Origin: a virus
Direction: 5' to 3' (one strand)
IMG/VR virus record: IMGVR_UViG_3300025030_000024
Span: 1-49,723 of that record
Length of the DNA stretch: 49,723 bases
In this document: one piece after another, positions 14,989 through 49,723 of the stretch
Layout: each line of letters begins with the position of its first letter
How positions within the stretch are numbered: position 1 is the stretch's first letter
Made by a program: the position numbers and the translations under genes
Notes under the pieces: generated by a model
What the model was told of the DNA's origin: nothing
What the model saw: the letters and a program-made list of their open reading frames with translations, nothing else
The model's database searches: none

Positions 14989-16500
14989 TTAGTTAAGTCC
15001 CTTATCAGGTGACTTTTTTGGGGTTTCTTTAGGTGCTTTGGCCTTTAGCTCAACTTCCTTTTTGTGTTTTACCTCTATTGCGGCGTCTATTAAAGCCTTT
15101 TCAGCGACTACATCCTCAACGTCATAAATTGAAGCAATTGTTTTAATCGCTGTTTCTTGTGACATTATACCGGCCTCAATCATAGTGGCCAGTGCATTAG
15201 CGGTGGAGGTTAAGTCGGTGGAAGTCGGTGCGTACCAAGCTGGCCACCGTAAAGAAATCTGAGTACCGGTTGGTATCTTGGGAATTCTATCACCGCGTTT
15301 AGTGGTGAGGGTAAATTTGTTGGAGGCTTTGATGATCATATAGATAATGTCAACCAAAGCACCTTCACCATAGGGGGTGCGAAGTTTGTCGGCTAACCAG
15401 ATAAGTGCCTGATTCATCATCTCCATAGCGCGACCAGACTGTGCTGCAGAAATTTTATCAGCATTTACTCGATTGCCATGGATGGACTCTAACCCTAATT
15501 CACGGAGAGCCTTGACGTACTCTATAACTGCAGCGGCGGCTGACCCACTGATTTCCAACAATTTTGCATCACCATTCTCTGAGACAATAAGAGCATTGGC
15601 CGCGCCACCTGTTTTTGTGGTTTGAGTAGTACCTGTATCACCGTATCCAGGCTCTTTGATCATTAGAGTGGGGTCGCTGGAATATTTCAAACCACGACCA
15701 GCCTGTGATAGTTGGTAGTCTATCTCGATCTGGGTATCAATGGCAGCTGTAAAGGTGCAAGCACCGTCGATGTCATTATCGGTTTTGCCGGGAAGATTCT
15801 TAATCCATATTACTGGGGTAAAACCTAAACCATGAGATACAGACTTTGCTGTATCTTCAACGAAGGGTTTGCCTTCGGTATAGTCGGTATTTTTCAGAGG
15901 TTTGTAATGGGTTTCTTTGGTTTTATCCCAATCACGCCTAAACCAGTACACCTCGTCCTTATCGATGCCTTTGTAACCAGCAGCTATAAAGGCACTACCT
16001 TTACACTTATACTGCTCAGTTACACACTGCAGGGTGTCAGGTTCATTGGGGTCCCAGCAAGGGGTGAGGAATTGCGTATTTTTAACTTCAAGAAATATAC
16101 GATTATTGAGTACCTTAAAAAGAATAGCAATAGAACCAACAGAACCACGAATGGCGGCATCGATCATTACCTCATTGAGTTTGATGTCCTTCATAACACT
16201 GTGGAGGCTCTGGCGAATCTCTTCACCCTTTTTGCCGCACTCTAATTCAGGGAAGTGGCCCTCAGAGAACAACAAAGATACAGAATCGTCAACGACAACC
16301 TTACATAGATTAGATTTAATGCAGGGTCGCCGCTTACGAATGGGTATATACTCATCAGCAGGTGACTTCTCCTCATGAAATCCATACTGGAGATGGTCAT
16401 ATATAGTACCGTCCAAGACCCTATAAGAGATGTCCACTTCGTGGGCACGCTTAGGGTAATCAGGGTCTTGGGTTATTTCAGAACAGATGGTTTTGAACAA
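14989..16500 (-). CDS. Portal protein, SPP1 gp6-like
   Basis: A 503-residue portal protein downstream of the large terminase with a 2-base gap. It has the portal outline: an N-terminal wing with helices (residues 1-250; IRKRRPCIKSNLCKVVVDDSVSLLFSEGHF is typical of gp6-type portals), the central core with GLGFTPVIWIKNLPG, and a helical clip and crown (SAAAAVIEYVKALRELGLESIHG, AAQSGRAMEMMNQALIWLADKL). The C-terminal 60 residues are Lys/Glu-rich. Portal forms the dodecameric DNA entry ring. The order terL-portal-scaffold-capsid supports it. Confidence 0.88.
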   Translation of the reverse strand: MFKTICSEITQDPDYPKRAHEVDISYRVLDGTIYDHLQYGFHEEKSPADEYIPIRKRRPCIKSNLCKVVVDDSVSLLFSEGHFPELECGKKGEEIRQSLHSVMKDIKLNEVMIDAAIRGSVGSIAILFKVLNNRIFLEVKNTQFLTPCWDPNEPDTLQCVTEQYKCKGSAFIAAGYKGIDKDEVYWFRRDWDKTKETHYKPLKNTDYTEGKPFVEDTAKSVSHGLGFTPVIWIKNLPGKTDNDIDGACTFTAAIDTQIEIDYQLSQAGRGLKYSSDPTLMIKEPGYGDTGTTQTTKTGGAANALIVSENGDAKLLEISGSAAAAVIEYVKALRELGLESIHGNRVNADKISAAQSGRAMEMMNQALIWLADKLRTPYGEGALVDIIYMIIKASNKFTLTTKRGDRIPKIPTGTQISLRWPAWYAPTSTDLTSTANALATMIEAGIMSQETAIKTIASIYDVEDVVAEKALIDAAIEVKHKKEVELKAKAPKETPKKSPDKGLN

Positions 16501-16502
16501 AG

Positions 16503-18575
16503 TTACCGCCCCATATGGTGTACTGTTACTTCTCTTGCTGGTCTACGTCGTTTTTGTTGAACCCATATTATTAACTGGGCCATACAGTCACTGTCTTCAT
16601 CGTGCTTACCATTCGGGAAAACAGCCATAGCATCCAAAAAATCCACCAGCCACGGAGCACCTTCCGGTAGATAAACATTACCTGCCTCAACAGTCGGTGT
16701 AGCCAGATTCGCTCGTTCTTCCTTATCATTGGTGCCGATGTTAAAAGCGATGATTGGTAAAGTGGTTTCTCTTTTTAATTCCTGGATTATATTCTGTCCA
16801 GATGCTTTATCCTCGATAAGGATGGCGTTGGCCGGTTCCATTGCTGCTACGTTGCGTATTTCGCGCTTGCCGTCAGGCGTCTCCATCTTCCGGTTTAATC
16901 GGAATGTGATGTAGATACCATTTTCGTAAACCTTAGCAACCAAACAACCCCAAGGGTCATTTCTTTGCTTTGCTTTGAAGGCCGTATCCCAGGAGTGGAT
17001 GGTCATACAAGGCCCCTTCGGGAGTTCCCTGTAATACTTCCACCATGTCCTCTTCCAGATTTCTCCTTCTACTGCGGACGGCCTCTGCTGGTACAAGCTC
17101 TGAAAAGAGGCTCCAAGTACCGTCTTGATGGCAAGGAGGGCCGGGACGTCATATCTTTCGGGGCAGAGCGCCTGTCCCTCTGCACGTCCAAGCTCATCAA
17201 GGCCACCGTCTTCATCCATTTCGGCAATTGCTGGGAGGTTAATTACCGTCCAATTCGGCCCATCCTCAGAGGCAAGAATTCTGCCAGCAAGGTCGTCTTG
17301 GTGCCAGCGGGTCATAATTAATATGATTGCAGCCCCTGGCTCCATACGAGTAGATAAATCGTCGGTGTACCAATCCCATACTTTTTCTTGGTAGGCTTTG
17401 GAGTTAGCTTCTTCGCGGTTTTTAACCGGGTCATCAATGATGATCAGGTTTCCACCTTGCCCCGTGATACCACCACCGACCCCAACGGCTCGATGTCCGC
17501 CACCTACCTCAGTTTCCCAATCCTCAACGGCTGTACGGTCTTTTGAGATTGCGATTCGTTCCATAGCAATCTTGCGTGTTTGCCGGGAGAACTTATTCGC
17601 TAGTGTCTGGTTGTAAGCCCCAACGATCACTCTGTCGGTCGGCCGTTTCTCCAGATACCACGCTGGAAACCGGATTGTTATGGCGTTCGATTTGCCGTGA
17701 CGAGGCGGCATGAACACCATTAACTTTTTCAAAGAACCATCAAATATCTGGCCAAGCCGTTTACGAATCAAAAGAAGGTGTGGCCAATCCCATTTAAAAG
17801 CCGGTGTGACCTGTTGTAACCATTCCCCGTATTCCGGAACGTCGTTTAACTGGTCTTCTCTGCCGCCGAGGTCCCAATCACCCTCCAACATTTTCTCAAC
17901 AAGCCATTCTGGGAACTGATCCCTTAGCCGATTGATGTAAGTTGGGTCTGACTCTGAAATAATCGGGTTATCTTTTATAGTAGCCGGTATCCAAACCCTC
18001 ATGGTATCTGAAAGAGGGTCGTGAATAGGTGTCATGCCAGCGGGAGCAGGGTTTATAAACCTTATCTTGGCCCAAGTATGTCCTTTCCCACCAGTTCTAC
18101 CTGTCAACATAAACTGTTTATTGTCAACAGGGCTAGGGGAGGAACAAAGAGCGGCTCGGAGTTTCGTTACCGGGGTTTCAGAAGGCCAGTCAGTGACTTT
18201 ATCAATAGCCAACCAACTATATTCTAAGTTCATAAACCGATCAACATTGTCGCCCTGTACTAGGTATCTTAAGGAGAGAATAGCCCCGTTATTAAATACC
18301 CAGTGCCGACGGTGTGGTACATACTTCGCGAAGGGGCTGAAAACCCGTCTCGTGAGGTGTATGATCTCGTCCAGTTCGTCGTTAGTACGCCTAAATATTG
18401 TTCCCTTGGCCTTCTCACCGTATGTGTTCGCGTGGGATAGCCATGATAACAATAAAATAAACGTAGAACCAGCCCCTGTTCCACCACCATAAAAGATTTC
18501 AAAGATCGGACAAGATAAAAGCCAGTTTTGTGGCCCCGGCTGAGGACTTAAAGTAACCGTCGAAGGTTCGCTCAT
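16503..18575 (-). CDS. terL: Terminase large subunit with two tandem ATPase domains
   Basis: A 690-residue protein, much longer than usual (450-570). Residues 1-240 form one terminase-type ATPase: Walker A site GGGTGAGST (30-38) has no lysine, and Walker B reads LAIDK (122-126) where DE is expected, so it is probably inactive. It still has family features (RTGGKGHTW, RVWIPATIKDNP, MLEGDWD). Residues 280-440 form a second complete ATPase with intact Walker A (PRHGKS, K295) and Walker B (IIIDD, 378-382). The nuclease follows at 525-670 with SWD (530), ED (588-589) and DED/DSD (659-663). It cuts and packages DNA with the small subunit. The ATG overlaps the small-subunit stop by 4 bases. The tandem arrangement is unusual. 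Confidence 0.88.
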   Translation of the reverse strand: MSEPSTVTLSPQPGPQNWLLSCPIFEIFYGGGTGAGSTFILLLSWLSHANTYGEKAKGTIFRRTNDELDEIIHLTRRVFSPFAKYVPHRRHWVFNNGAILSLRYLVQGDNVDRFMNLEYSWLAIDKVTDWPSETPVTKLRAALCSSPSPVDNKQFMLTGRTGGKGHTWAKIRFINPAPAGMTPIHDPLSDTMRVWIPATIKDNPIISESDPTYINRLRDQFPEWLVEKMLEGDWDLGGREDQLNDVPEYGEWLQQVTPAFKWDWPHLLLIRKRLGQIFDGSLKKLMVFMPPRHGKSNAITIRFPAWYLEKRPTDRVIVGAYNQTLANKFSRQTRKIAMERIAISKDRTAVEDWETEVGGGHRAVGVGGGITGQGGNLIIIDDPVKNREEANSKAYQEKVWDWYTDDLSTRMEPGAAIILIMTRWHQDDLAGRILASEDGPNWTVINLPAIAEMDEDGGLDELGRAEGQALCPERYDVPALLAIKTVLGASFQSLYQQRPSAVEGEIWKRTWWKYYRELPKGPCMTIHSWDTAFKAKQRNDPWGCLVAKVYENGIYITFRLNRKMETPDGKREIRNVAAMEPANAILIEDKASGQNIIQELKRETTLPIIAFNIGTNDKEERANLATPTVEAGNVYLPEGAPWLVDFLDAMAVFPNGKHDEDSDCMAQLIIWVQQKRRRPAREVTVHHMGR

Positions 18576-19228: not shown

Positions 19229-19456
19229 TTAGATATCCAGTAGTTGTTTTTTTAATTTCTCCATCATCCATAGAACAGTACCACCATCAGGTATACTAGA
19301 TGCAAAGAAATATTCACCGTCTTCCTTTTTACCTAAAATTACTATATCTTCAAGATTTTCTGTAATAACACCATCCAGTACTCTTTGTACTGGTATGTTT
19401 AACCTAGTAGGGCAGTCTAAAACTACTACTTTTTTAGGAACTGATTTAAGTGTCAT
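19229..19456 (-). CDS. Small conserved phage protein, unknown function
   Basis: A 75-residue protein starting inside the last codons of the upstream gene (11-base overlap). A start at MTLKSVPKK is preferred because it sits at the coupling point. It contains KKVVVLDCPTRLNIPVQRVLDGV and DIVILGKKEDGEYFFASS, followed by a helix (GGTVLWMMEKLKKQLL). I recall similar short proteins as common in phage genomes near replication or terminase genes, but no function is known. No metal-binding motif. Confidence 0.65.
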   Translation of the reverse strand: MTLKSVPKKVVVLDCPTRLNIPVQRVLDGVITENLEDIVILGKKEDGEYFFASSIPDGGTVLWMMEKLKKQLLDI

Positions 19457-19880
19457 ATGGTACGAGTTCCAAAGTTGCCCTTGGGTTCTCCTTATCAACG
19501 TTGCCTATTTCATAAACCACCCGACGAATTATCTTGTAATCATCATCAGGTATTATTTTAAATGTTACCAATGCATCCATAGTAAACTTTGAAATTATCG
19601 GGAGTGGGTTTTCCAGGTCCATACGGGTTCTGGTAGGTGGGTAAAGAGTCCACCTAGCTTCAAAAGGCCCACTAAAAGTGTTTGTACAGATTGCTGGCCA
19701 CCCTGCCTCATCCAAAGCCACTTCAACTACCTCGTGGTAATTGTTTTTGGCGTGTGACAGCACCATGTGATGTGCCCCACGATAATTATTCAAGTTTAGA
19801 ATGAACGATTTTGAAGCTTCTGTCTTACCCGTCCTAACCCGTAAAGGGAGACTGATTATGAAAGATGGGTCTTTTGACAT
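19446..19880 (-). CDS. rusA: RusA-like Holliday junction resolvase
   Basis: A 144-residue protein at the head of the leftward operon. The segment RTRMDLENPLPIISKFTMDAL...IPDDDYKII matches the RusA pattern (D..N..K...D.L......DD..I), with the acidic residues expected to bind metal and resolve branched DNA before packaging. The RusA first motif is divergent (DLEN rather than DLDN). No Shine-Dalgarno precedes ATG 19880. The promoter -10 element lies seven bases upstream, so the mRNA probably starts at the ATG and is leaderless. Size fits RusA (about 120-150 residues). Confidence 0.65.
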   Translation of the reverse strand: MSKDPSFIISLPLRVRTGKTEASKSFILNLNNYRGAHHMVLSHAKNNYHEVVEVALDEAGWPAICTNTFSGPFEARWTLYPPTRTRMDLENPLPIISKFTMDALVTFKIIPDDDYKIIRRVVYEIGNVDKENPRATLELVPYDT

Positions 19881-19916: not shown

Positions 19917-20007
19917 GGTATCGTGTAATGAAGACCCAGTGGGATAGGCAGAGGTATATGTGTAGTGAATGTGCGCCACGCGTCGCTCCCTGTTTGATGT
20001 TACGTAG

Positions 20008-20025
20008 TTGCAAGAGCCGTGCCAA
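20008..20025 (-). promoter_or_regulatory. Sigma54-type promoter, leftward
   Basis: Minus strand reads TTGGCACG (20025-20018), four bases, TTGC (20013-20010), then AA, an exact match to the RpoN consensus TTGGCACG-N4-TTGC. The predicted start is near 19998, 118 bases upstream of the resolvase ATG. It points into the late operon. The TGTACA-rich element lies just upstream of it. Confidence 0.75.
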
Positions 20026-20056
20026 AAGGTATAAATATCTTTGTACACACGCAAGT

Positions 20057-20086
20057 GCCCGTCGGACGGGCCTCGAAATATTTCGA
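20057..20086. repeat. Two adjacent palindromes
   Basis: GCCCGTC-G-GACGGGC (20057-20071) and the perfect 14-bp palindrome TCGAAATATTTCGA (20073-20086) lie side by side. The GCCCGT stem recurs at 23037-23052 with a TCCG loop, next to another sigma54 promoter. They may be protein-binding sites. Confidence 0.7.
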
Positions 20087-20107
20087 CATTTATGCTCTAT
20101 ACACGTT

Positions 20108-20285
20108 CTGTACACGCGGAGGCCCGTCTCCGACGGCGTTTTGTACAAGATGGTACAACGGGACAACGAATCGCGAAGTGTTGTTGTTGTTTGTTTTTCT
20201 TCTCCTGGAAATATGAAAAAAGGCTGTACCGCTGTCACAAAATGGCGCGAAGGCCTGTACGACGCGGCCTCGGACGTGTACAGAG
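20108..20285. repeat. Duplicated noncoding element, copy X
   Basis: This 178-base segment matches 25393-25566 in the same orientation. Collinear landmarks are CTGTACACG, GGCCCGTC, GTTTTG, GGTACA, GAAG then TTGTTTGTT, GGAAATATG, CTGTACC, GACGCGGCC and GTGTACAG. Four boxes of TGTAC type recur in both copies. It may hold regulator sites, an origin or a small RNA. Confidence 0.7.
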
Positions 20286-20288
20286 CCG

Positions 20289-20312
20289 GTACAGAGAAGT
20301 TATTCTCTGTAC
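20289..20312. other. Strong hairpin, 10-bp stem with GTTA loop
   Basis: GTACAGAGAA (20289-20298), loop GTTA, TTCTCTGTAC (20303-20312). An alternative 12-bp pairing joins 20274-20285 with 20305-20316, so the two hairpins compete. ATTTTT follows 8 bases later on the plus strand, a weak terminator sign. Confidence 0.7.
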
Positions 20313-20489
20313 ACGTTGCCATTTTTCGGGGTTGATCTTCTATGTAGATTCTGGGTTTGGGAGACTTACTCTGAGAAGCAGGCTACTCACTGCGACGGGG
20401 GGTGCTCTATGTGGGATGCGGCTTTCGACACAAGACCATTTTACCATGGCGGATTAGGTCGTGGCAATATGTCGTGTAACGAGTATTTA

Positions 20490-20620
20490 AATCCCTATAT
20501 ACCGTGGTGAATATAGTATATACCTGACTTCGTGCTCTTATTGTCTTGATATAAAATGTATATTAAATATTCAATCCCCCTTATACCCAATCCCCCTTAT
20601 ATCCAATCCCCCTTATATCC
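20490..20620. other. Origin-like AT-rich stretch with three 16-bp iterons
   Basis: An AT-rich part (20480-20571) is followed by three direct repeats of CAATCCCCCTTATATC starting at 20572, 20588 and 20604 (first copy ends ACC). Iterons beside AT-rich DNA are typical of replication origins, but no matching initiator gene was recognised. Confidence 0.45.
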
Positions 20621-20859
20621 GGTCGTACTATACCTCAATGGTTTCCCGCTGCTTTCCGCTCGTCTGCTATGGGGGAATATGCCACGGGGGTTAATCGATG
20701 GGGTATTAAAGGGCATGGGACGAGCAAACCCGGTTCCGGTATTCGGGCCGGTGCGGTGAACAGAGGAGGGGCAAAGAGGGCACATCGAATACCTCTCCTC
20801 GTTTAGTCCCCGGTCTGTGCCTTCGGCCCTTGGCTAGGGGTCGTGGGGCTGGGTCGGGG

Positions 20860-21046
20860 TATGACAAAGCACGTCATAGGTATGACAAAGCACGTCATAT
20901 CTCCGAAGGCCCGTCCTTAGCGGGCTTGCGGGTGTTGGGCCGTGAAACAGGGTGCGTGAAACATATCCTTAGTCCGCGAAGGCCCGTCCTTGGCGGGCTT
21001 GCGGGGTATGACAAAGCACGTCATAGGGGTGACGAAGGACGTCATA
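20860..21046. promoter_or_regulatory. Palindrome cluster TGAC-N7-GTCA (four copies)
   Basis: Three identical 19-base copies of TATGACAAAGCACGTCATA lie at 20860-20878, 20881-20899 and 21007-21025, with a variant (GTGACGAAGGACGTCATAC) at 21029-21047. They are dyad symmetric with half sites TATGAC/GTCATA. Copies 3-4 sit about 140-180 bases upstream of the first rightward sigma54 promoter, a usual distance for enhancer sites. Two relatives occur at 22962-23000. Confidence 0.8.
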
Positions 21047-21150
21047 CGGCGGGGCCGTCGACCGGCCTTACTGCAAACCCCGTGCCAAATCAGCTACCGG
21101 GGCAGCGGGTAGGTCCTAGGCCGTAAGCCCGCTAAGGACGGGCCTCCGCG
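20903..21150. repeat. GC-rich repeat GGCCCGTCCTT-GCGGGCTT (three copies, one inverted)
   Basis: Copies at 20903-20932 and 20974-21004 are direct and nearly identical. A third, inverted, lies at 21123-21150. Inside each, GCCCG and CGGGC can pair. The copies flank the TGAC palindromes. Function unknown. Confidence 0.7.
21072..21088 (-). promoter_or_regulatory. Sigma54-type promoter, leftward (distal)
   Basis: Minus strand TTGGCACG (21088-21081), GGGT, TTGC (21076-21073), A. Exact RpoN consensus. It points left, toward the control region and late operon, and is divergent to the two rightward copies 100-175 bases away. Confidence 0.7.
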
Positions 21151-21186
21151 ATCAAGGGTGTCTCGACCGGGGTACGGGGCATCGGT

Positions 21187-21202
21187 TTGGCACGGGGGTT
21201 GC
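21187..21202 (+). promoter_or_regulatory. Sigma54-type promoter, rightward 1
   Basis: TTGGCACG (21187-21194), GGGG, TTGC (21199-21202), AA. The start is expected near 21212-21214. The transcript begins with TAGGGG then a GGGG...CCCC hairpin (GGGGCTCGACCCC), which recurs at the two other rightward copies. Confidence 0.8.
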
Positions 21203-21261
21203 AACCTCAAAGGTAGGGGCTCGACCCCGCCAGCAGGCACCACCGGCCAGCCCGATCGGGT

Positions 21262-21277
21262 TTGGCACGGGGGTTGC
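21262..21277 (+). promoter_or_regulatory. Sigma54-type promoter, rightward 2
   Basis: TTGGCACG (21262-21269), GGGG, TTGC (21274-21277), AA. The promoter and 5' hairpin are a direct repeat of the copy 75 bases upstream. The predicted start (about 21288) is about 44 bases upstream of the first early gene. Confidence 0.82.
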
Positions 21278-21331
21278 AAGAATAAGAGTAGGGGCTCGAC
21301 CCCGCCAGACCACTATACGGAGGATACACCC

Positions 21332-21556
21332 ATGAGCACACAGACCATCGCCACCCGCATCGCCGCTGCACAGATCCCCACTGCTGCCATCCCTGCTATG
21401 GTAGCCGATCTGGACGATCGCACCCCTGCTGAGCTTACCGCGATAGCCGATCTAGCTGAGCTTACCGCCAGCCTAGTGGATGGCAGCATTGGATTCGAGT
21501 GGTACTCTGCTGATGTCCTACGTATCCTACGCTCACTGGGCTGGTCGCCAGCCTGA
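21332..21556 (+). CDS. Small early protein, unknown
   Basis: A 74-residue protein, the first gene of the rightward operon. ATG 21332 follows a GGAGG site (21318-21323 region). The protein is Ala-rich and helical, with TIATRIAAAQIPTAAIPAMV, TPAELTAIADLAELTASL and an end FEWYSADVLRILRSLGW. The pattern of short helices resembles a small DNA- or protein-binding bundle, but no family was recognised. It sits directly behind two sigma54 promoters, so it should be among the first genes made under that control. Confidence 0.65.
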   Translation: MSTQTIATRIAAAQIPTAAIPAMVADLDDRTPAELTAIADLAELTASLVDGSIGFEWYSADVLRILRSLGWSPA

Positions 21557-21644
21557 TCTGGTATGACCCTTGCAGCACCAATACTGACCCTAGCGGACAC
21601 CATGCTGCTGGGGCAGACATCACAGACCCGAATGGAGACATGCC

Positions 21645-22253
21645 ATGACCACCACAGCCCACACACAGACCCGTACCACCGTTAAAGCCGACCTCAAGAC
21701 CCGTGCAGACCTCAAAGCCGCTAACCCCAAGGCCAAGAACCTCGACAAGATCAAGGCAGGCTCAACCCTCAAGTCCGGCTCCACCCAGAAGCCGGGTGCA
21801 GCCACAGCCGCTCATCGTGCTGCCGTCAAGGATGCTGTCAAGGCATCCGGTAACGCCAAGGCCGCTGCACCTGCTACGCCCAAGGTTGATCCAGCTATCG
21901 CTGCTGCAGCCAAGGCTGTGCTTAAGGCTGAGCAGAAGGCCGCATTTGAGGCCCGGATTGCTGCACAGAAGATCGCTACTGCCGCTAAGCACCACGCACA
22001 GAAGCTGTTCTCGTCGTTCACTGCACGTGTCAAGTACATGGCCTACATGGACAATCCTGAGTTCGGCGGCCTCGATGGGCGCGAATCGATCGGCTGGACC
22101 CTGACACACGTAAACAGCACTGGGGTACACCTTAAAGCTGAGCGTAAGGGCGATACGGTTTACTTCTACACCGGCAAAGAGCAGATTGGCGCAATCCCCT
22201 GCACCAGAGAAGACGTGGCCTCACTGCTTGATGTATCTAAGTGGGCCGCCTAG
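21645..22253 (+). CDS. Basic Ala/Lys-rich early protein, paralogue A
   Basis: A 202-residue protein. Residues 1-110 are rich in Lys, Ala and Thr (histone H1-like tail character), with repeated AAAKA-type runs. Residues 118-200 form a domain shared with the proteins at 26817 and 27493: FTARVKYMAYMDNP..GG..GR.SIGWTL..VNSTGV. This domain is unnamed as far as I know. A ribosome site (GGAG) precedes ATG 21645. The basic tail suggests nucleic-acid binding, and the shared domain suggests a common partner. Function unknown. Confidence 0.75.
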   Translation: MTTTAHTQTRTTVKADLKTRADLKAANPKAKNLDKIKAGSTLKSGSTQKPGAATAAHRAAVKDAVKASGNAKAAAPATPKVDPAIAAAAKAVLKAEQKAAFEARIAAQKIATAAKHHAQKLFSSFTARVKYMAYMDNPEFGGLDGRESIGWTLTHVNSTGVHLKAERKGDTVYFYTGKEQIGAIPCTREDVASLLDVSKWAA

Positions 22254-22276
22254 ACCGACACACAGAGCAAAAGCGA

Positions 22277-22304
22277 GAGGGACCGGCTAATCCCCGGTCC
22301 CCTC
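22277..22304 (+). other. Intergenic GC-rich hairpin
   Basis: GAGGGACCGG pairs with CCGGTCCCCTC across a 7-base loop, with one bulged C. No T run follows, so it may be a processing or stabilising element rather than an efficient terminator. Confidence 0.55.
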
Positions 22305-22341
22305 TACTGACCCCAAACCAGAGAGAAGAGAGGATACAGTT

Positions 22342-22479
22342 ATGAGTGCAGAGATAAGCAGGACACTGGCTAAGGCGATCGCGTACAAAGCCTGTGGCAA
22401 ACACAAAGAGGCCAAGGAATGGGCAACTAAGTTGCTGGAGATGCTTACTGCCGCAGGACTGTTTAAAGGGGAGGCTTAG
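22342..22479 (+). CDS. Very small helical protein
   Basis: A 45-residue protein (MSAEISRTLAKAIAYKACGK to AAGLFKGEA). ATG 22342 follows AGAGAGAAGAGAGG, a purine-rich leader seen before at least seven genes here. It is basic, helical and followed by the next gene with 2 bases between them. Its reading frame is tightly packed between two genes, which supports it. Function unknown. Confidence 0.65.
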   Translation: MSAEISRTLAKAIAYKACGKHKEAKEWATKLLEMLTAAGLFKGEA

Positions 22480-22481
22480 CC

Positions 22482-22718
22482 ATGAGCAAAGGCATGACGA
22501 TTGACTTTAAGCTAGGCGGCAAGGAGAAGCGGGTGTTTGTTCCGCAAGCTGTCTGCCTCATGTACAGCAAGGTGGACTACTTTACTGCCGCTAAGGAGTA
22601 CCTCAAGGTCGCGTATCCCGGCTGTAAGACTACCAGCATAAGCGTAAGTGGGGGTAAGCACAGCCACGACCTCACCGAGGTAACGGAATTGCCTAGAACC
22701 GGGAGGACACGACCATGA
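22482..22718 (+). CDS. Small early protein, unknown
   Basis: A 78-residue protein with a good GGGGAGG site before ATG 22482. The sequence alternates strands and helices (MTIDFKLGGKEKRVFVPQAVC; FTAAKEYLKVAYPGCKTTSISV). Its stop TGA overlaps the next ATG by 4 bases. No family was recognised; three Cys are not in a metal-binding pattern. Confidence 0.7.
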   Translation: MSKGMTIDFKLGGKEKRVFVPQAVCLMYSKVDYFTAAKEYLKVAYPGCKTTSISVSGGKHSHDLTEVTELPRTGRTRP

Positions 22719-22987
22719 GACCACTCACCACGATGCTTACTGTATTGACCGTTGTTGTCCTACTCCAGACACCAATAATTATCCGTGAACCTGATCTACG
22801 CGAACTCGATCGGCTAGAACAAGTCGAGCTTGATGCCGCTATTAGGGATGAAGAGGCCCTGCAGAACGAGGCCGAAATAGAGGCTCTTGAGGGCTTTACC
22901 GATATGGACTGTGAATTGCGCGAATCTGAGACTGTGCCAAACCCTTTCATATTTACTGACAGTGACAAGCTTCGTCACCGCGAGTGA
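22715..22987 (+). CDS. Small single-span membrane protein
   Basis: A 90-residue protein with an N-terminal hydrophobic segment (PLTTMLTVLTVVVLLQTPIII, residues 3-22) and a long acidic, Glu-rich helical tail (ELDRLEQVELDAAIRDEEALQNEAEIEALEGF). The ATG is coupled to the upstream gene by an ATGA overlap. It would be anchored in the inner membrane with a charged domain. The 3' end overlaps the first of two TGAC-N7-GTCA palindromes. Function unknown. Confidence 0.7.
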   Translation: MRPLTTMLTVLTVVVLLQTPIIIREPDLRELDRLEQVELDAAIRDEEALQNEAEIEALEGFTDMDCELRESETVPNPFIFTDSDKLRHRE

Positions 22988-23000
22988 CAAGCTTTGTCAT
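22962..23000. promoter_or_regulatory. Two TGAC-type palindromes upstream of sigma54 promoter
   Basis: GTGACAAGCTTCGTCAC (22962-22978) and GTGACAAGCTTTGTCAT (22984-23000) match the palindromes in the main control region. Their centres are about 85-110 bases upstream of the -24 element at 23074, a common spacing for activator sites. The first overlaps the end of the upstream gene. Confidence 0.75.
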
Positions 23001-23073
23001 ACAAGCCTGAATCAGGTATTACCCGCAACCACGAGAAGCCCGTTCCGACGGGCACAGCATCAGAGGCTGTTTG

Positions 23074-23089
23074 TTGGCACGACGTTTGC
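23074..23089 (+). promoter_or_regulatory. Sigma54-type promoter, rightward 3
   Basis: TTGGCACG (23074-23081), ACGT, TTGC (23086-23089), A. Twelve bases after the C at -12 lies the sequence TAGGGCTTCGACCCT at 23101, equivalent to the TAGGGGCTCGACCCC of the other two copies, with compensatory change in the stem. It would drive the gene at 23157. Confidence 0.82.
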
Positions 23090-23156: not shown

Positions 23157-23642
23157 ATGCGATACACTCACCACGTTGATAAGTCCTACCGCCCTTTAAC
23201 TACCTGTGACGTATTGGTCAGACCAGACGTGCACACTACTACAGCCACTGATCACACGGTGACCTGTCCCGATTGTCGCGCTATTCTCGACGGCACCCCG
23301 GTGCAAGCCCCTTCGGACGTCTCCGAGGGTACATCCGAGGACCAGTGGCTGTGTGCGATGGTGGTCCAGCTTACCGAGGTACAGTGCGGCATGCTTCTCC
23401 ACTTCCTACAGAACAATCTAGATGACACCCGTTATGCCTTATTCTGTCACCAAGAGGTAATTGATGCCGGGTACGTTGATGCAGACGCTAGTCATGGACC
23501 CCTCGACATCTTGGGTGCTTGTCTTCCTATAGGCAGGATCACCGAGGACATCTGTGACCATTGCGGATGCGCTTTGTCCACCCGTACTACTAAACGAGCC
23601 ACCGAATCCGTGCAGTTATGTAACGTCTGTGGAGGTGAGTAA
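23157..23642 (+). CDS. Zinc-ribbon-containing protein, unknown
   Basis: A 161-residue protein with two metal-binding pairs: CPDC near residue 41, and CDHCGC plus CNVCGG near the C terminus. Between them are acidic loops and a helix (EVQCGMLLHFLQNNLDDTRYALF). The likely start is ATG 23157 behind GGAGACGAGCC, since the frame further upstream overlaps the palindromes and promoter. The Cys pairs suggest structural zinc. Function unknown. Confidence 0.7.
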   Translation: MRYTHHVDKSYRPLTTCDVLVRPDVHTTTATDHTVTCPDCRAILDGTPVQAPSDVSEGTSEDQWLCAMVVQLTEVQCGMLLHFLQNNLDDTRYALFCHQEVIDAGYVDADASHGPLDILGACLPIGRITEDICDHCGCALSTRTTKRATESVQLCNVCGGE

Positions 23643-24665: not shown

Positions 24666-25061
24666 ATGAATATTAAAAATCGATGGACAGGTAATATAAT
24701 TATGACCACTGACGGGGCCGACCTGCGTGGGGCCAACCTGTACGGGGCCAACCTGTGTGGGGCCGACCTGCGTGGGGCCAACCTGTACGGGGCCAACCTG
24801 TGTGGGGCCGACCTGCGTGGGGCCAAATACGGTGAAGAGATATTAAGGGGTTTCTTACAGATTAGTCCTATTGGTTCCCGTAATTCAACGCTTCAAATAT
24901 TTGGAGTAGGCCCGGTCAACTTATTGTTTAAAACGGGTTGTTTTTCTGGTAATACGAAAGAATTTACTGAAATAATTAGCAAAACCCATGGGGACCGTGT
25001 CTATGCGACTGATTACCTAGCCGCGATAGAATTCGCTAAATTAATGATACCCACTATTTAA
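24666..25061 (+). CDS. Pentapeptide repeat protein
   Basis: A 131-residue protein. Residues 17-53 are eight pentapeptides of A(D/N)L..G type (for example [21 protein letters not shown]), which form a short right-handed beta helix. The C-terminal 75 residues ([33 protein letters not shown]...I...HG....Y) match a domain often found after pentapeptide repeats in phage proteins. The ribosome site AAGGAGG precedes ATG 24666. Such proteins can mimic DNA, but no target can be inferred. Confidence 0.8.
24714..24825 (+). repeat. 45-bp tandem repeat coding pentapeptides
   Basis: Blocks such as GGGGCCGACCTGCGTGGGGC recur in two 45-base rounds plus a partial one, identical at the DNA level. The near-perfect identity implies recent tandem duplication by slippage. 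Confidence 0.8.
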
Positions 25062-25283: not shown

Positions 25284-25392
25284 TTCGCCATCCCTGCAAG
25301 ACCCGTACCAAATCGATTAATTAGCTCTATACACACAAAGGTTGCGTCCTTCGGGCCTTGAGGCTCTTCGTGTATAAAGCTCCTAAATCCCT

Positions 25393-25566
25393 CTGTACAC
25401 GTCCGAAGGCCCGTCCGTCGCAGTTTTGAGGGTATCGGTACAGCGTGACAGCAGAGCGGAAGAGAGAAGTTGTTTGTTGTTTCTCTTTCCCGGAAATATG
25501 CAAAACTGTACCGGCTGAGCAAACCGCCGTCCGACGCGGCCTTTGGGCGTGACAGCATGTGTACAG
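25393..25566. repeat. Duplicated noncoding element, copy Y
   Basis: This segment aligns with 20108-20285 as a direct repeat; see copy X for the shared landmarks. The stretch from 25284 to 25603 holds no convincing gene: frames in it lack ribosome sites and read through the repeat. Upstream (25322-25392) are weaker parallels such as CTCTATACAC, also found before copy X at 20095. Confidence 0.7.
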
Positions 25567-25809: not shown

Positions 25810-25839
25810 TTGACACATGTGCCTGTGCTGTGGTACAAT
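25810..25839 (+). promoter_or_regulatory. Sigma70-type promoter
   Basis: TTGACA (25810-25815), 18 bases, TACAAT (25834-25839), preceded by TGTGG. The start is expected near 25846. A leader of about 115 bases with an 11-bp hairpin follows before the next ATG at 25962. Confidence 0.75.
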
Positions 25840-25961: not shown

Positions 25962-26741
25962 ATGAAAAAAGTAGAAATGATCTCCTTTAGCCAAGATGTA
26001 TCTAATATCGATGTTGTCGTCATCAATGGGAAAGAATTTTCCAGTAACGACAAGGTAGATATCCTCAAGGCCGACGCTTTCCGTACTGGTATGAAACACG
26101 CTCAACCCCCCAAGGTAGTAGAGGTTCTTATACCTCGTCATACTATTCGTTTTGAAAATCAGATGTATAACCACGTTTCTGTTGGTTTAGCTGCTGTAGA
26201 TTCGGCTTTAATATCAGGCCATAAAGCTGGCTTTAAAGAAGGACAGAGAGTGGCCTCTGTGAAACCCGTGAAAAGAAGATCATACCCCGGTGAGACTGTT
26301 ATTGTCCGGTCTACAGATACCAAGTCATTTATGACAATGTCTTCTACTTTCATTGAAATCCGCAGTATGAGTAACGGTAGTGCGTTAAACCCCTCTGCAC
26401 CTGAACTTGATGTAATGCCTGGGGATGAAATTCAAATTTTTATCAAAAAGAGAGGCGGTAAAGACATGGGTAAACTCGCAGGTTCAACAGTAGTAGAAGC
26501 GCCGGAAGTAAAGATGATCAAAGTACAGTCATCCACGATCGCCGCTATCGGCCATGATGGCCGGGAGTTTGGCAATCTCCGTATCCAGTTTTGCAACAAG
26601 CAGGGTGTACCAACGTCCACCTATGAATATTCTGATGTTCCACTGGATTTCTTCCAAGCGTTCATGGCAGCTGATTCCAAGGGTACATTCCTTGGTCAGT
26701 ACAAATGGAAACCGGTAATGAGTAAGTACAGAAAGCTTTAA
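25962..26741 (+). CDS. KTSC-domain protein with unknown N-terminal part
   Basis: A 259-residue protein starting at ATG 25962 (AGAGAGAATACGAGG leader). The C-terminal 65 residues (VQSSTIAAIGHDGREFGNLRIQF...YEYSDVPLDFFQAFMAADSKGTFL) match the KTSC domain (about 60 residues, S..I...GYD...L.V.F..G..Y.Y..VP...), common in phage proteins and possibly RNA-binding. The N-terminal 180 residues have strands and a segment FRTGMKHAQPPKVVEVLIPRH; no domain recognised. It lies after its own promoter. Confidence 0.75.
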   Translation: MKKVEMISFSQDVSNIDVVVINGKEFSSNDKVDILKADAFRTGMKHAQPPKVVEVLIPRHTIRFENQMYNHVSVGLAAVDSALISGHKAGFKEGQRVASVKPVKRRSYPGETVIVRSTDTKSFMTMSSTFIEIRSMSNGSALNPSAPELDVMPGDEIQIFIKKRGGKDMGKLAGSTVVEAPEVKMIKVQSSTIAAIGHDGREFGNLRIQFCNKQGVPTSTYEYSDVPLDFFQAFMAADSKGTFLGQYKWKPVMSKYRKL

Positions 26742-31229: not shown

Positions 31230-33035
31230 ATGGCTGTTATCAAACCCAAAAAGAAATCCTTACTTGTCCCGGCCTCCGCCCTCCCTGAGGACTGTACTGA
31301 TTTAGTCGTGATTGCCGATACCGAGACAACCGGACTCCATAAGTTGCTGGATAAGCCTTTCATGTTTCAGTGTATTATAAACAAGAAATCCTATGCAATC
31401 GAGTGGACACCGAACCTGATCAGGTGGATAACTGACAATGCTGCCAAGATGAAAAAATTTGTATTCCATAACGGCAAATACGACTACCATATGATGATCA
31501 ATGGCGGGGTTAATGCAGACGTTCTTTACAACTCTAACATTTACTGTACTTTTGTAGTAGAAGCCCTGCTCAACGAGCACCGTTTCACCTATAATCTCTC
31601 TGATCTTGGTAGTGAGTATTTCGGTACTCCTAAACGTGATGATGAACTCCTACAGTGGCTAGCTGACCACTTTGGTGAAAAGAAATCCAAGGCCTTAATG
31701 AGCCGAATCTCCCAGGCTCCGCGTGAAATCGTAGCCGACTATGGTATTGGGGATGTGGAGATTACCGAGAAATTGTACTACCGACAACAACCTCTGATCA
31801 AGGCCCAAGAATTATCTGGTATCGTATCATTGGAAATGGAGTGCCTTAAAGCATTAGCCGAGATAGAGCGTCGTGGTGTACCTGTTGATATTGAAAAAAC
31901 CCAAAGAGTGGAGGAGGCGCTAATTGATAGACAGAAATCTGTACAAGAGCGGATTGTGGACCTTGTTGGGTGGCCTGTTAATCCACGTTCTCCTCTCGAT
32001 ATGGTTCGCGCCTTTGAAAAGCTGGACCTCAGGGTTAGATACCTTAAGACAGGTAACCCTACCTTCGCCGCTAAAGTTATCGACGAAATCAATAACCCAT
32101 TTACTCTTGCTCTTAAAGAGTCTCGTGGTATTAAAACCATGCTTGATACTTTTATCACTGGCAGTATCGGCACATTCCTCAGTCCCCAAGGTCGTATCCA
32201 TACCGACTTTAACCAAGTACGAGGCGATGATTATGGGACAGGAACAGGTAGACTTTCGTCGTCTCAACCTAACCTTCAACAGGTCCCAAAACGAGATGGA
32301 GAGTTGGCTCCAATGGTACGCGGGTTGTTTGTCCCTCCGAAAGGCAAAAATTGGCTTGCTAATGACTGGGAGCAATTCGAATTCAGGATATTTGCCCACT
32401 ACGTTAACGACCCCATATTAACAGCCAGATACTTAAACGACCCATCTACCGACTTCCACCAAGCCCTGTCTGAGGCTACCGGGGTCCCACGACCACGAGC
32501 CAAGCGAATCAATCTTGGTTTAGTTTTCGGGATGGGTGAGGGTAAACTAGCCTCTGAGCTGGGGTTGCCTTACACCGAGGAAACACGTGGCGAGATGACC
32601 TACCTCAAGGCCGGACCAGAGGCGAAACAATTGTTTGATGAATATCATGAGCGGTTTCCTGGTGTTAAAGCCTTCTTGACACAGGCCGCGAATCTGGCCC
32701 GTAGTAGAGGCTATATTAAGACAATCCTTGGCCGCCGTATCCGATTCCCCGGTGGCAAGGCTGTCCACAAGGCTGGTGGGTTAGTATTCCAAGGTACAGC
32801 GGCAGACCTTATGAAAAAGAAACTAGTGGAGCTTAACAATGCCTACCGAAATTCAGAAAATGAACTCGTTCTTGTTGTCCATGATGAATTCGACTTCATC
32901 TGCCCAAGCTCTAAAACTTTATCAAATAAGCTTGCTAAACGCGTTAAGGCAATTACCGAAGACGTACCCGAACTTCGTATACCCATTCTGTCCAAGGCTA
33001 CGGTTGGAACCGATTGGTGGGATGCTAGTAAGTAA
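31230..33035 (+). CDS. polA: Family A DNA polymerase (DpoZ candidate)
   Basis: A 601-residue polymerase with 3'-5' exonuclease. Exo motifs: DTETTG (30-35), HNGKYD (80-85) and YGIGDVEIT (171-179). Polymerase motif A is NDWEQFEFR (D379), the O helix is R423..K425..INLGLVFG (to 434), and motif C is VVHDEF (D552). The residue matching E. coli Phe762 is Leu429, and that matching Tyr766 is Phe433. There is no 5' nuclease domain. In Z-genome phages a family A polymerase near purZ (DpoZ) favours 2-aminoadenine over adenine; here purZ is about 0.4 kb downstream. Motif evidence for polymerase is firm; Z preference is inferred. Confidence 0.9.
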   Translation: MAVIKPKKKSLLVPASALPEDCTDLVVIADTETTGLHKLLDKPFMFQCIINKKSYAIEWTPNLIRWITDNAAKMKKFVFHNGKYDYHMMINGGVNADVLYNSNIYCTFVVEALLNEHRFTYNLSDLGSEYFGTPKRDDELLQWLADHFGEKKSKALMSRISQAPREIVADYGIGDVEITEKLYYRQQPLIKAQELSGIVSLEMECLKALAEIERRGVPVDIEKTQRVEEALIDRQKSVQERIVDLVGWPVNPRSPLDMVRAFEKLDLRVRYLKTGNPTFAAKVIDEINNPFTLALKESRGIKTMLDTFITGSIGTFLSPQGRIHTDFNQVRGDDYGTGTGRLSSSQPNLQQVPKRDGELAPMVRGLFVPPKGKNWLANDWEQFEFRIFAHYVNDPILTARYLNDPSTDFHQALSEATGVPRPRAKRINLGLVFGMGEGKLASELGLPYTEETRGEMTYLKAGPEAKQLFDEYHERFPGVKAFLTQAANLARSRGYIKTILGRRIRFPGGKAVHKAGGLVFQGTAADLMKKKLVELNNAYRNSENELVLVVHDEFDFICPSSKTLSNKLAKRVKAITEDVPELRIPILSKATVGTDWWDASK

Positions 33036-33201: not shown

Positions 33202-33341
33202 CCAGATTTTTACCTTATTGGAAAGACCGGATAAGGATTATGGGCGTTGATCACGTACATATGGAGTTAAATAAAGGTAAGACTACGATTCTTACCAGAA
33301 AGGACAGAACGGGGCTTATGCAGGCCCTAGGATTACGGTAA
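33141..33341 (+). CDS. Small protein upstream of purZ
   Basis: A 66-residue protein with an AAAAGGAG site before ATG 33141. It contains NVTRFLPYWKDRIRIMGVDHV and ELNKGKTTILTRKDRTGLMQALGLR, suggesting a small basic fold that could bind nucleic acid. Its TAA overlaps an in-frame ATG of the purZ frame (TAATG at 33339-33343). No family recognised. Confidence 0.6.
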   Translation: MVQEVIPNNNSCDRTKRPNVTRFLPYWKDRIRIMGVDHVHMELNKGKTTILTRKDRTGLMQALGLR

Positions 33342-33442
33342 TGGCACATAGACTAGGTAACACAGAACTCCGATACGGGGCACTGGCAACAAGATTATTG
33401 CACGACAGATTCAACACACTCATGAATAAAAGGAGACAACGA

Positions 33443-34579
33443 ATGGAAAAGAACGCCAATGCATTTCAGGGTAAAGTAACTAAACCGATCACCAGTATTA
33501 TCTGCGCATACCTTATCATGGATGGGCAGTGGGGCAGTACAGGCAAGGGCCTGATTGCCGGAACTCTAGCTGTTAACCGTCTGCCTGATGGCGTAGTATG
33601 TAACTTCGGGCCAAATGCCGGTCATACCTTTATCACCCCCGATGGTGAAAAAGTAATGACCCAACAGCTCCCCACCGGTATCATCACCCCGGCCCCGGCT
33701 AGTATCTTTATCGGCCCCGGTGCGATCATCGACCCTGATCTGATGACGAATGAACTTCAATCTTTCAGCCATCACCTCACCAACAAGAAAATCTATATCC
33801 ACCCAAGAGCAGCAATAGTCCTCCCGGCACATAAAAAGGCCGAAAAACAGAATCTTGGCCGGATTTCCTCGACACAGAAGGGAACCGGAGCAGCAGCGGC
33901 ATGCAAGGTAATGCGTGAAGAAGTTGCAGTAGTCGGCACCCATGCAGGCATCCTCCCGTGGGGTCATCTTATTTGTACCGAAGCTGAGTATAACGAGGCC
34001 CTGATGTCCTGCCGCGTTCTACAGATCGAGTCGGCACAGGGTTTTGAACTTGGCCTCAATCAGGGTTTCGACTACCCGCATTGTACCGGTCGTGATGTTA
34101 CACCGGGGCAGATCATGGCTGACTGTGGTATACCTCACTGGATACAGGTAGAGGTGTTCGTGTCGCTCCGTACCTTTCCAATCCGTGTTGGCCACCAGAT
34201 CGAGGATGGAGTACAGGTGGGGCACTCAGGGCCCTGCTACGGTGACCAGACCGAGTTGGCATGGGGTGAAGGTCCACTTGCTCACATGGAACCTGAGCGT
34301 ACTACCGTAACCAATAAAATTCGCCGCATCTTCACATTTAGCTGGGAGTCCTATGCTCGTATGTGCCGATTCGTCAAACCTGACCGCATCTTCCTGAATT
34401 TTACAAACTACCTGGAAGACGGTCCTGACTACGACACCCCGGTGACCAGTACCATGTTGGATGATCTGGTGAAAAATTATAATGCCGCCACCGGTCAGAA
34501 TGTTGATGTTGAACAGCTTATCCCGTATATCGGGACAGGTCCGGCTTACAACGATGTGAAATTCATTTCATTTAATTAA
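33443..34579 (+). CDS. purZ: PurZ: Z-nucleotide synthetase (adenylosuccinate synthetase homologue)
   Basis: A 378-residue protein in the PurA superfamily. The first motif is MDGQWGSTGKGLI (residues 26-38); where bacterial PurA has the catalytic Asp (GTQWGDEGKG) this protein has Ser32, the change reported as a mark of PurZ, which joins aspartate to dGMP to start 2-aminoadenine (Z) synthesis. AGHT (59-62, His61), STQKGTGAAAACK, IESAQGF, TLRT-like SLRTFPIRVG and RRIFTFSWE follow as in PurZ. The start ATG 33443 has an AGGAG site; the frame is open up to ATG 33341, so a longer 412-residue form is possible. DatZ-like and polymerase genes nearby support a Z pathway. Confidence 0.88.
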   Translation: MEKNANAFQGKVTKPITSIICAYLIMDGQWGSTGKGLIAGTLAVNRLPDGVVCNFGPNAGHTFITPDGEKVMTQQLPTGIITPAPASIFIGPGAIIDPDLMTNELQSFSHHLTNKKIYIHPRAAIVLPAHKKAEKQNLGRISSTQKGTGAAAACKVMREEVAVVGTHAGILPWGHLICTEAEYNEALMSCRVLQIESAQGFELGLNQGFDYPHCTGRDVTPGQIMADCGIPHWIQVEVFVSLRTFPIRVGHQIEDGVQVGHSGPCYGDQTELAWGEGPLAHMEPERTTVTNKIRRIFTFSWESYARMCRFVKPDRIFLNFTNYLEDGPDYDTPVTSTMLDDLVKNYNAATGQNVDVEQLIPYIGTGPAYNDVKFISFN

Positions 34580-35617: not shown

Positions 35618-36133
35618 ATGAATACAATACTACTAAAAAGAAGATTACCCCAAGCAATATGGGCCTCAAGACCTCACGGTGATGAAGATGCCGGGATTGA
35701 CTTGGTATGTTGTGAATCCAAAATAATCTGGCCTCACTCATGCGTAGAAGTGGATACCGGCTGGGATATCAAAATACCAGACGGATTTTGGGGTTCGATC
35801 AAGAGCCGTAGCTCTACATTCGCTAAACGGAAACTGATGGTACTTGAGGGTATTATTGACCCCGGCTATACGGGGCGATTGTCAGCTATCGTGTTTAATA
35901 CCACCTTTCTCCCTAAAAAGGTCAACACAGGGGATAGGTTAATACAGTTAATCATAGTGCCCATGGTCCCAACTGACATGAAGATAGTCACCTCCCTTCC
36001 AAGGACAAGCCGTGGTCGTAGCGGGTTCGGGTCCACGGATGTTGGACTTAACATCAAACAAGTGAGGAAACTCCAATGGCAAACCTACAAAACCTCCTCA
36101 CCCTATCTCATGTCCCTAGGTGGGCTATTATAG
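35618..36133 (+). CDS. dut: dUTPase
   Basis: A 171-residue trimeric dUTPase. The five motifs are present in order: DAGIDLV (motif 1), IKSRSS (2), GIIDPGYTGRLS (3), GDRLIQLI (4) and SRGRSGFGSTD (5), which ends in D rather than G. It converts dUTP to dUMP, which feeds ThyX and keeps uracil out of DNA. The gene overlaps the HD phosphohydrolase start by 58 bases. Residues after motif 5 (30 extra) are probably flexible. Confidence 0.9.
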   Translation: MNTILLKRRLPQAIWASRPHGDEDAGIDLVCCESKIIWPHSCVEVDTGWDIKIPDGFWGSIKSRSSTFAKRKLMVLEGIIDPGYTGRLSAIVFNTTFLPKKVNTGDRLIQLIIVPMVPTDMKIVTSLPRTSRGRSGFGSTDVGLNIKQVRKLQWQTYKTSSPYLMSLGGLL

Positions 36134-36588
36134 ACGTGTCCAAATCACAAACAGTAGCTGACCACTCTTTCAGGGTTGCCGTCATATGCATGGAACTGAT
36201 GAAAGAGCTACTAGCTATAAATACGACACTGGATGTGGCCTACGTACTGACCAAAGCACTGTGTCACGATGTCAAAGAGGCCAGAACCGGTGATATACCT
36301 ACCCCATACAAAAAAGAGCTAAAAGGCATAGGATTTGAGCTTAGTGATGATGACGATATGCAGTTGATGGAAGATTATATGGTTAAAATTGCTGATATCA
36401 TGGAAGCAATAATCTTCATTAGACGATACGGCAACAAAACTAAAAGAATCCAAGAAGAACTTACAATGTCTCTACATAGGTTACGTGATGAAGTATGGGA
36501 CACGTACAGTTTCGGTGAGGTAACACCCCGAAGCTGGTGGAACCGGATAATCGATAAAATACTTGAAACAGGGGCCGACTATGAGTAA
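36076..36588 (+). CDS. datZ: HD-domain nucleotidase, DatZ candidate
   Basis: A 170-residue HD phosphohydrolase of YfbR type. Metal ligands appear in VADHSFRVA (H30), ALCHDVKEARTGDIPTPYKK (H64, D65) and a later Asp. The pattern RTGDIPTP is typical of 5'-deoxynucleotidases. In S-2L and other Z phages the similar DatZ removes dATP so that Z replaces A in DNA. With PurZ and a family A polymerase in the same genome, DatZ is the best guess; a general YfbR-like role is the alternative. The gene starts inside dut and ends overlapping PrimPol. Confidence 0.78.
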   Translation: MANLQNLLTLSHVPRWAIIDVSKSQTVADHSFRVAVICMELMKELLAINTTLDVAYVLTKALCHDVKEARTGDIPTPYKKELKGIGFELSDDDDMQLMEDYMVKIADIMEAIIFIRRYGNKTKRIQEELTMSLHRLRDEVWDTYSFGEVTPRSWWNRIIDKILETGADYE

Positions 36589-49158: not shown

Positions 49159-49723
49159 CTATTTCCACGCCCATACACGATAGTAAAATATCTTAGTAAC
49201 ACCTGACATGTTTTCAATGTGGAGCTTATCCGTACCACCTGGGACAGTCTCCACCCAAACTGCTCCTCCAGAACTGCTGCCAGTGGGGGCGAATGACTGT
49301 ATTACTGGGACAGAACTTGTTTGTACATTGTATGTGTAAGTGACCTCATTTATCTGCGGCTCCAAAGCAATCTGTGCTGCTGATGCTGGGCCACTTGGTA
49401 TAGATACTGATGTATTGTATATTTCTACCCAATTTCTGCCAGTTAAGGCCGCTGCGGCCAACACTGTTTTGCTGGAGTCAGCGGTATTATCAGCAAGGGG
49501 GAGGCCGACCATACTTTTAGTGATACCACCAACAGTCCCCGTAAATATAGGACTCGCAAGGTTGGCCTTCAAGTTCAAAGCTGTCTGCTGTGCCGTAGAT
49601 ACTGGCTTCGCCATATCAGCGGTATTGTCAACACTGGAAAGGCCGACCATACTTTTAGTTACACCACCGACAGTTCCTGTAAAAGTAGGACTTGCGAGGT
49701 TGGCCTTCAAGTTCAAAGCTGTC
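49159..49723 (-). CDS. Tail fibre protein 1, C-terminal part (cut by contig end)
   Basis: This is the 3' part of the fibre gene that begins at 859. It holds at least 1.5 more 46-residue repeats (one diverged copy with PIFTGTVGGITKSMVGL) and the end domain: LTGRNWVEIYNTSVSIPSGPASAAQIALEPQ, then beta strands and TDKLHIENMSGVTKIFYYRVWAWK. After the overlap is merged it is in frame with the N-terminal part. The end domain would face the host. Trimerisation through the repeats is expected from family knowledge. Confidence 0.8.
   Translation of the reverse strand, partial: TALNLKANLASPTFTGTVGGVTKSMVGLSSVDNTADMAKPVSTAQQTALNLKANLASPIFTGTVGGITKSMVGLPLADNTADSSKTVLAAAALTGRNWVEIYNTSVSIPSGPASAAQIALEPQINEVTYTYNVQTSSVPVIQSFAPTGSSSGGAVWVETVPGGTDKLHIENMSGVTKIFYYRVWAWK
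49515..49723. repeat. 138-bp fibre repeats, right end, with 71-base overlap
   Basis: One diverged copy (49515-49652) and a partial copy (49653-49723) of the 138-bp repeat. The partial copy is identical to the first 71 bases of the window. Confidence 0.9.

Follow-up and report, generated by a model that had tools for sequence, protein, structure and literature searches.

Sigma54 promoters and palindromes in a phage control region

Which transcription machinery serves a phage control region in which sigma54 (RpoN) promoter matches crowd into about 3 kb? The original prediction held that the five sites found there were exact, that chance would yield almost none, and that they were RpoN promoters of a phage whose RpoN-bearing host also supplies the activator. 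We scanned both strands of the window, which is the entire IMG/VR virus record of 49,723 nt, for the pattern TTGGCACG-N4-TTGC, which places GG at -24 and GC at -12, ten bases apart. The search returned the same five sites, each a 12/12 match at the coordinates and on the strand first given (Table 1), against an expectation of 0.005 from the base composition of the window (probability of five or more about 2e-14), and the pattern read backwards had no match in the window. The sites themselves and their excess over chance are thereby confirmed. A further sigma54-like copy with a single mismatch, on the minus strand, had been overlooked. The DNA around it, 25295-25550, is a diverged second copy of the leftward promoter module at 19990-20330, carrying GTAC-rich repeats (CTCTGTACACG and similar) in an orientation that opposes the rightward genes.

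Two of the three rightward promoters, P21187 and P21262, form a repeat unit of 75 bp, and a short hairpin (GGGGCTCGACCCC, with variants), which had likewise escaped notice, lies only a few bases beyond the predicted start of each of the three. Hairpin and sigma54 site combined as a search pattern gave no viral matches. Downstream of these promoters, small genes preceded by ribosome binding sites start at 21332 and 23157; seven genes of this block were compared with Pfam, and a single pentapeptide-repeat protein accounted for the only match. The leftward promoter P20025(-) points at a gene at 19446-19880, and beyond it at TerL and the structural arm. This left arm, with the portal gene at 14989-16500 and TerL at 16503-18575, is encoded by the minus strand; the replication genes belong to the right arm, which is encoded by the plus strand.

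Also overlooked were six palindromes of the type TGAC-N7-GTCA, in the form TGACR-N5-YGTCA, which are the only ones in the whole window (0.74 expected) and all fall within 20862-22999. They are arranged as three tandem pairs with spacings of 21, 21 and 22 bp, and TGAC/GTCA combinations with other spacer lengths occur in the window in 0-2 copies each. Candidate enhancer sites for an AAA+ activator accordingly stand upstream of P23074 and P21187, and the leftward promoters have none adjacent: P21088(-) has no full palindrome upstream on its own strand, and the closest full palindromes to P20025(-) are about 840 bp upstream.

Table 1. Positions of promoters, palindromes, leader hairpins and the downstream gene block in the window
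Feature	Sequence	Start	End	Strand	Remark
Palindrome	TGACAAAGCACGTCA	20862	20876		member of a tandem pair
Palindrome	TGACAAAGCACGTCA	20883	20897		21 bp after the 20862 copy
Palindrome	TGACAAAGCACGTCA	21009	21023		-178 from P21187
Palindrome	TGACGAAGGACGTCA	21030	21044		21 bp after the 21009 copy; -157 from P21187
Palindrome, PilR-type	TGACAAGCTTCGTCA	22963	22977		-111 from P23074
Palindrome	TGACAAGCTTTGTCA	22985	22999		22 bp after the 22963 copy; -89 from P23074
Predicted sigma54 promoter P20025(-)	TTGGCACGGCTCTTGC	20010	20025	-	exact match
Predicted sigma54 promoter P21088(-)	TTGGCACGGGGTTTGC	21073	21088	-	exact match; leftward
Predicted sigma54 promoter P21187	TTGGCACGGGGGTTGC	21187	21202	+	exact match
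Predicted sigma54 promoter P21262	TTGGCACGGGGGTTGC	21262	21277	+	exact match; ahead of gene starting at 21332
Predicted sigma54 promoter P23074	TTGGCACGACGTTTGC	23074	23089	+	exact match; ahead of gene starting at 23157
Sigma54-like site	TTGGTACGGGTCTTGC	25296	25311	-	one mismatch; inside partial second copy of the 20010-20330 module
5' leader hairpin	GGGGCTCGACCCC	21216	21228	+	directly past predicted P21187 start
5' leader hairpin of P21262		21291	21303	+	
5' leader hairpin of P23074	TAGGGCTTCGACCCTG	23101	23116	+	
Small-gene block		21332	25061	+	downstream of rightward sigma54 promoters

The palindrome precedes type IV pilin genes in bacteria

The palindrome found at 22963, TGACAAGCTTCGTCA, has a form common to 61 sites upstream of bacterial pilin genes. 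A scan of a genome collection for TGACR-N5-YGTCA located 70-100 bp upstream of an exact sigma54 site yielded 82 promoters, of which 7 were too near the end of the fetched DNA to be judged. Among the 75 evaluable sites, 51 have a type IV pilin gene (GFTLIEL signature) immediately downstream, and these span Zoogloea, Gallionella, Lysobacter, Luminiphilus, Moraxellaceae, Deltaproteobacteria, Myxococcales and Aminicenantes. For comparison, 31 sigma54 sites were taken from a sample of Zoogloea-class genomes irrespective of any palindrome; two precede a pilin gene, one of them with the palindrome (51/75 versus 2/31, Fisher 4e-9). In the genome set the palindrome usually stands at -85 to -114, and both the form and, for P23074, the offsets of the phage sites agree with those of pilA promoters. 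At 4 of the 51 pilin loci the fetched DNA encodes a REC-AAA(GAFTGA)-Fis regulator. A class-level genome comparison of the palindrome with swapped half-sites did not distinguish the two (1 versus 0 of 369). A short contig in an Acidimicrobiia MAG (JASJBC010000049.1, locus L183), perhaps a phage or a contaminant, has two sigma54 promoters with PilR-type palindromes before non-pilin genes.

PilR is known as the sigma54 activator that serves pilA (PMC6058289). The palindrome, which precedes pilin genes, is therefore best read as a PilR enhancer, and PilR, judged by gene context, is most likely the protein that recognizes it. The sigma54 activator domain PF00158 has no match in the window, which makes host PilR the best candidate for the activator of the phage promoters. 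Hence the RpoN promoters, RpoN host and host-supplied activator of the original prediction are all supported at the level of sequence.

A relative and other phages share the design

Looking for the same sites in related phages had been suggested at the outset. A PolA search of IMG/VR recovered one close relative, a syntenic contig of 27.9 kb (L006) with a PolA 59-60% identical, and its control region contains two exact sigma54 sites. One of these is the same 16-mer as P20025; the other is accompanied by a 5' hairpin and, at -135/-112, by paired palindromes. A TerL search added one distant relative only (36%), and a search for named close relatives found none.

Beyond this lineage, the palindrome-plus-sigma54 pattern occurs in 32 IMG/VR stretches, which form 25 distinct contig groups, 12 of them with two or more palindromes. 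None of these stretches has a pilin gene downstream, and TerL is matched in 17 of 30 palindrome-bearing contigs examined, including that of L006. Among 46 other contigs, two gave a weak, partial match to PF00158. The control with swapped halves, GTCA-N7-TGAC, gave 17 stretches in viral contigs; these reduce to 8 distinct groups, no group has two copies, and TGACA/TGTCA sites of the PilR type occur in two of the eight. The contrast of 8 groups with 25 implies that a few of the phage matches are due to chance. When IMG/VR was scanned for tandem palindromes alone, with no sigma54 site demanded, at least 120 matches were obtained, and the matches listed comprise 109 distinct arrays when identical arrays are merged and related ones kept separate. 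In these 109 arrays among the matches listed, start-to-start spacings cluster at 19-24, 30-34 and 38-44 bp, with a periodicity of 10.5 bp (R = 0.53; the highest value among 5000 uniform draws was 0.37), as for sites phased on the helix. Of the 109 arrays among the matches listed, 36 have a sigma54 site with up to 2 mismatches no more than 220 bp away; decoy patterns gave 3/109 and 1/109.

Contigs picked from IMG/VR solely by a sigma54 match have the palindrome at 1 of 122 sites, indicating that the PilR-type design is a subset, one class among several. Eight IMG/VR loci, L111, L087, L036, L110, L048, L040, L050 and L015 (contigs G028, G023, G010, G027, G014, G012, G015 and G005, respectively), each contain 4-11 exact sigma54 sites, for the most part on a single strand, with no match to the reversed pattern and no PilR-type palindrome seen nearby. 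These sigma54-driven phages may use other activators; no common dyad stood out among the few sites of the sigma54-cluster contigs lacking the PilR-type palindrome. Fifteen named phage records, including those of the pilus-binding DMS3, LUZ19 and LSL4, lack such sites and remain at background.

A pilA-like control region probably read by host PilR

These observations suggest that the segment at 20.0-23.1 kb is a pilA-like sigma54 control region, from which host RNA polymerase with sigma54 and host PilR would transcribe phage genes; judging from sequence comparison, we give this reading a probability of roughly 0.75. Host RNA polymerase carrying sigma54 would bind the -24/-12 elements, and PilR, the response regulator of the PilS-PilR system, would occupy the tandem palindromes, which lie on one helix face, and then remodel the polymerase so that transcription begins. 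P21187, P21262 and P23074 are predicted to feed the rightward small-gene block (21.3-25.1 kb), and the short 5' hairpin may stabilise their transcripts. P20025 and P21088 face the leftward arm of terminase and structural genes and may share the same enhancers from afar. Phage expression would in this way be coupled to the PilR-active, pilus-making state of the infected cell, with the pilus itself as the putative receptor. In such a cell PilR would already be active, and pilA-type promoters can presumably be strong. The phage might gain immediate expression, a means of timing lysis, as has been proposed for CtrA, or a way of drawing PilR off pilA.

Several features sit less comfortably with activation by PilR. 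The pair at 21009/21030 lies at -157 to -253 relative to its rightward promoters, farther than in most pilA promoters, and there is no full palindrome close upstream of P20025(-), P21088(-) or the copy at 25296(-). The sigma54 promoters may be real and yet respond to a different host enhancer-binding protein that recognizes the same site, for instance an unnamed NtrC-family regulator. In keeping with this, 24 of the 75 evaluable genomic sites precede non-pilin genes, including fimbrial-type secreted proteins and unrelated genes, and this share of about one third allows for a different activator with a similar site; moreover, none of the NCBIfam models is named for PilR, and the regulator encoded beside pilA is scored as generic NtrC family. 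The concentration on pilin genes across distant phyla, which is missing from unselected sigma54 sites, argues against such a protein and leaves it an unlikely substitute for PilR. It is also conceivable that the palindromes are decoys that titrate PilR and sigma54, thereby lowering pilin and blocking superinfection, with phage transcription secondary. Three tandem pairs per genome, one of them distant from the promoters, would suit such a role, as would the LSL4 protein PIT4, which interacts with PilS and has been proposed to act in infection exclusion (PMC10714779). A decoy would have no need of exact -24/-12 elements, a promoter-like offset, or a downstream gene start with a ribosome binding site, all of which are present, and we regard this as improbable.

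Repeated operator palindromes are frequent in phage control regions, and the six palindromes fit this habit, so that a phage-encoded regulator might bind them, the sigma54 match then serving only weakly or with no activator involved. That the identical palindrome stands ahead of bacterial pilin genes and of sigma54 sites in unrelated phages, and that sigma54 promoters normally require an activator, makes this very unlikely. A chance or compositional artefact, for which one could cite the GC-rich repeats common to the region, is scarcely credible against the 0.005 sites expected, the empty reversed control and the conservation in L006.

Activation by host PilR, which we retain as the preferred reading, resembles PilS-PilR/sigma54 control of pilA in Pseudomonas aeruginosa and Geobacter sulfurreducens (PMC6058289) in its exact -24/-12 elements and in TGACR-N5-YGTCA sites about 85-114 bp upstream. 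It differs in that phage genes rather than pilin would be driven, with more enhancer copies, promoters in both directions and some enhancers farther away. The nearest precedent in principle is the CtrA control of pilus- or flagellum-binding phages of Alphaproteobacteria, termed "lytic deferment" and proposed to time lysis (PMC9437464), where a phage intergenic region is likewise rich in sites for a host appendage response regulator. The regulator and the sigma class are different, the present sigma54 being enhancer-dependent, and sigma54, RpoN and PilR are unmentioned in that paper. PIT4 of Pseudomonas phage LSL4 is a further case of a phage interfering with the PilS-PilR pathway (PMC10714779), but it is a protein that interacts with the kinase; a phage promoter under PilR is undescribed there, and the LSL4 record has no exact sigma54 site. 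Our search of the open-access literature found no phage with its own genes on PilR-driven, enhancer-dependent sigma54 promoters.

Host PilR thus probably switches on phage genes through textbook sigma54 promoters and paired pilin-type sites, a design present in many environmental phages. We also think it rather likely that uncultured phages of a broad range have taken over the PilR-sigma54 module of pilin genes and read the pilus state of the host, limiting expression to, or timing it by, pilus-competent cells. If so, phages tap the pilus-sensing pathway of bacteria, which would be a second, independent appendage-linked mode of phage control after CtrA, and deletion of pilR, pilS or pilA should shift phage genes in the same direction as pilin. 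In P. aeruginosa, deletion of pilA and loss of pilR put PilR in opposite states (PMC6058289). The palindrome and sigma54 site together offer a signature leading to candidate pilus-dependent phages among uncultured viruses.

Other features of the genome

A direct repeat of 71 bases, located within a repetitive gene, is common to the two ends of the window, and the map is therefore probably almost closed. Both ends (1-220 and 49504-49723) sit in one tandemly repeated gene with a unit of about 137 bp, probably encoding a tail protein, whose repeat number is likely misassembled. The pentapeptide-repeat gene at 24666-25061 has repeat DNA 84-86% identical to that of genes in the Caulobacter phages RapA and BL94. 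The right half encodes a PurA-like (adenylosuccinate synthetase) protein (33341-34579), a family A DNA polymerase, PolA (31230-33035), whose named relatives include a "DpoZ", and a relative of dATP triphosphohydrolase (36076-36588). Together these suggest a Z-genome phage with diaminopurine in place of adenine, and what seems to be diaminopurine DNA counts among the points against the PilR/sigma54 reading. A sigma70 promoter close to consensus (TTGACA-18-TACAAT, its second hexamer preceded by TG) lies at 25810-25839 ahead of the gene at 25962-26741, suggesting that the replication genes have a separate start.
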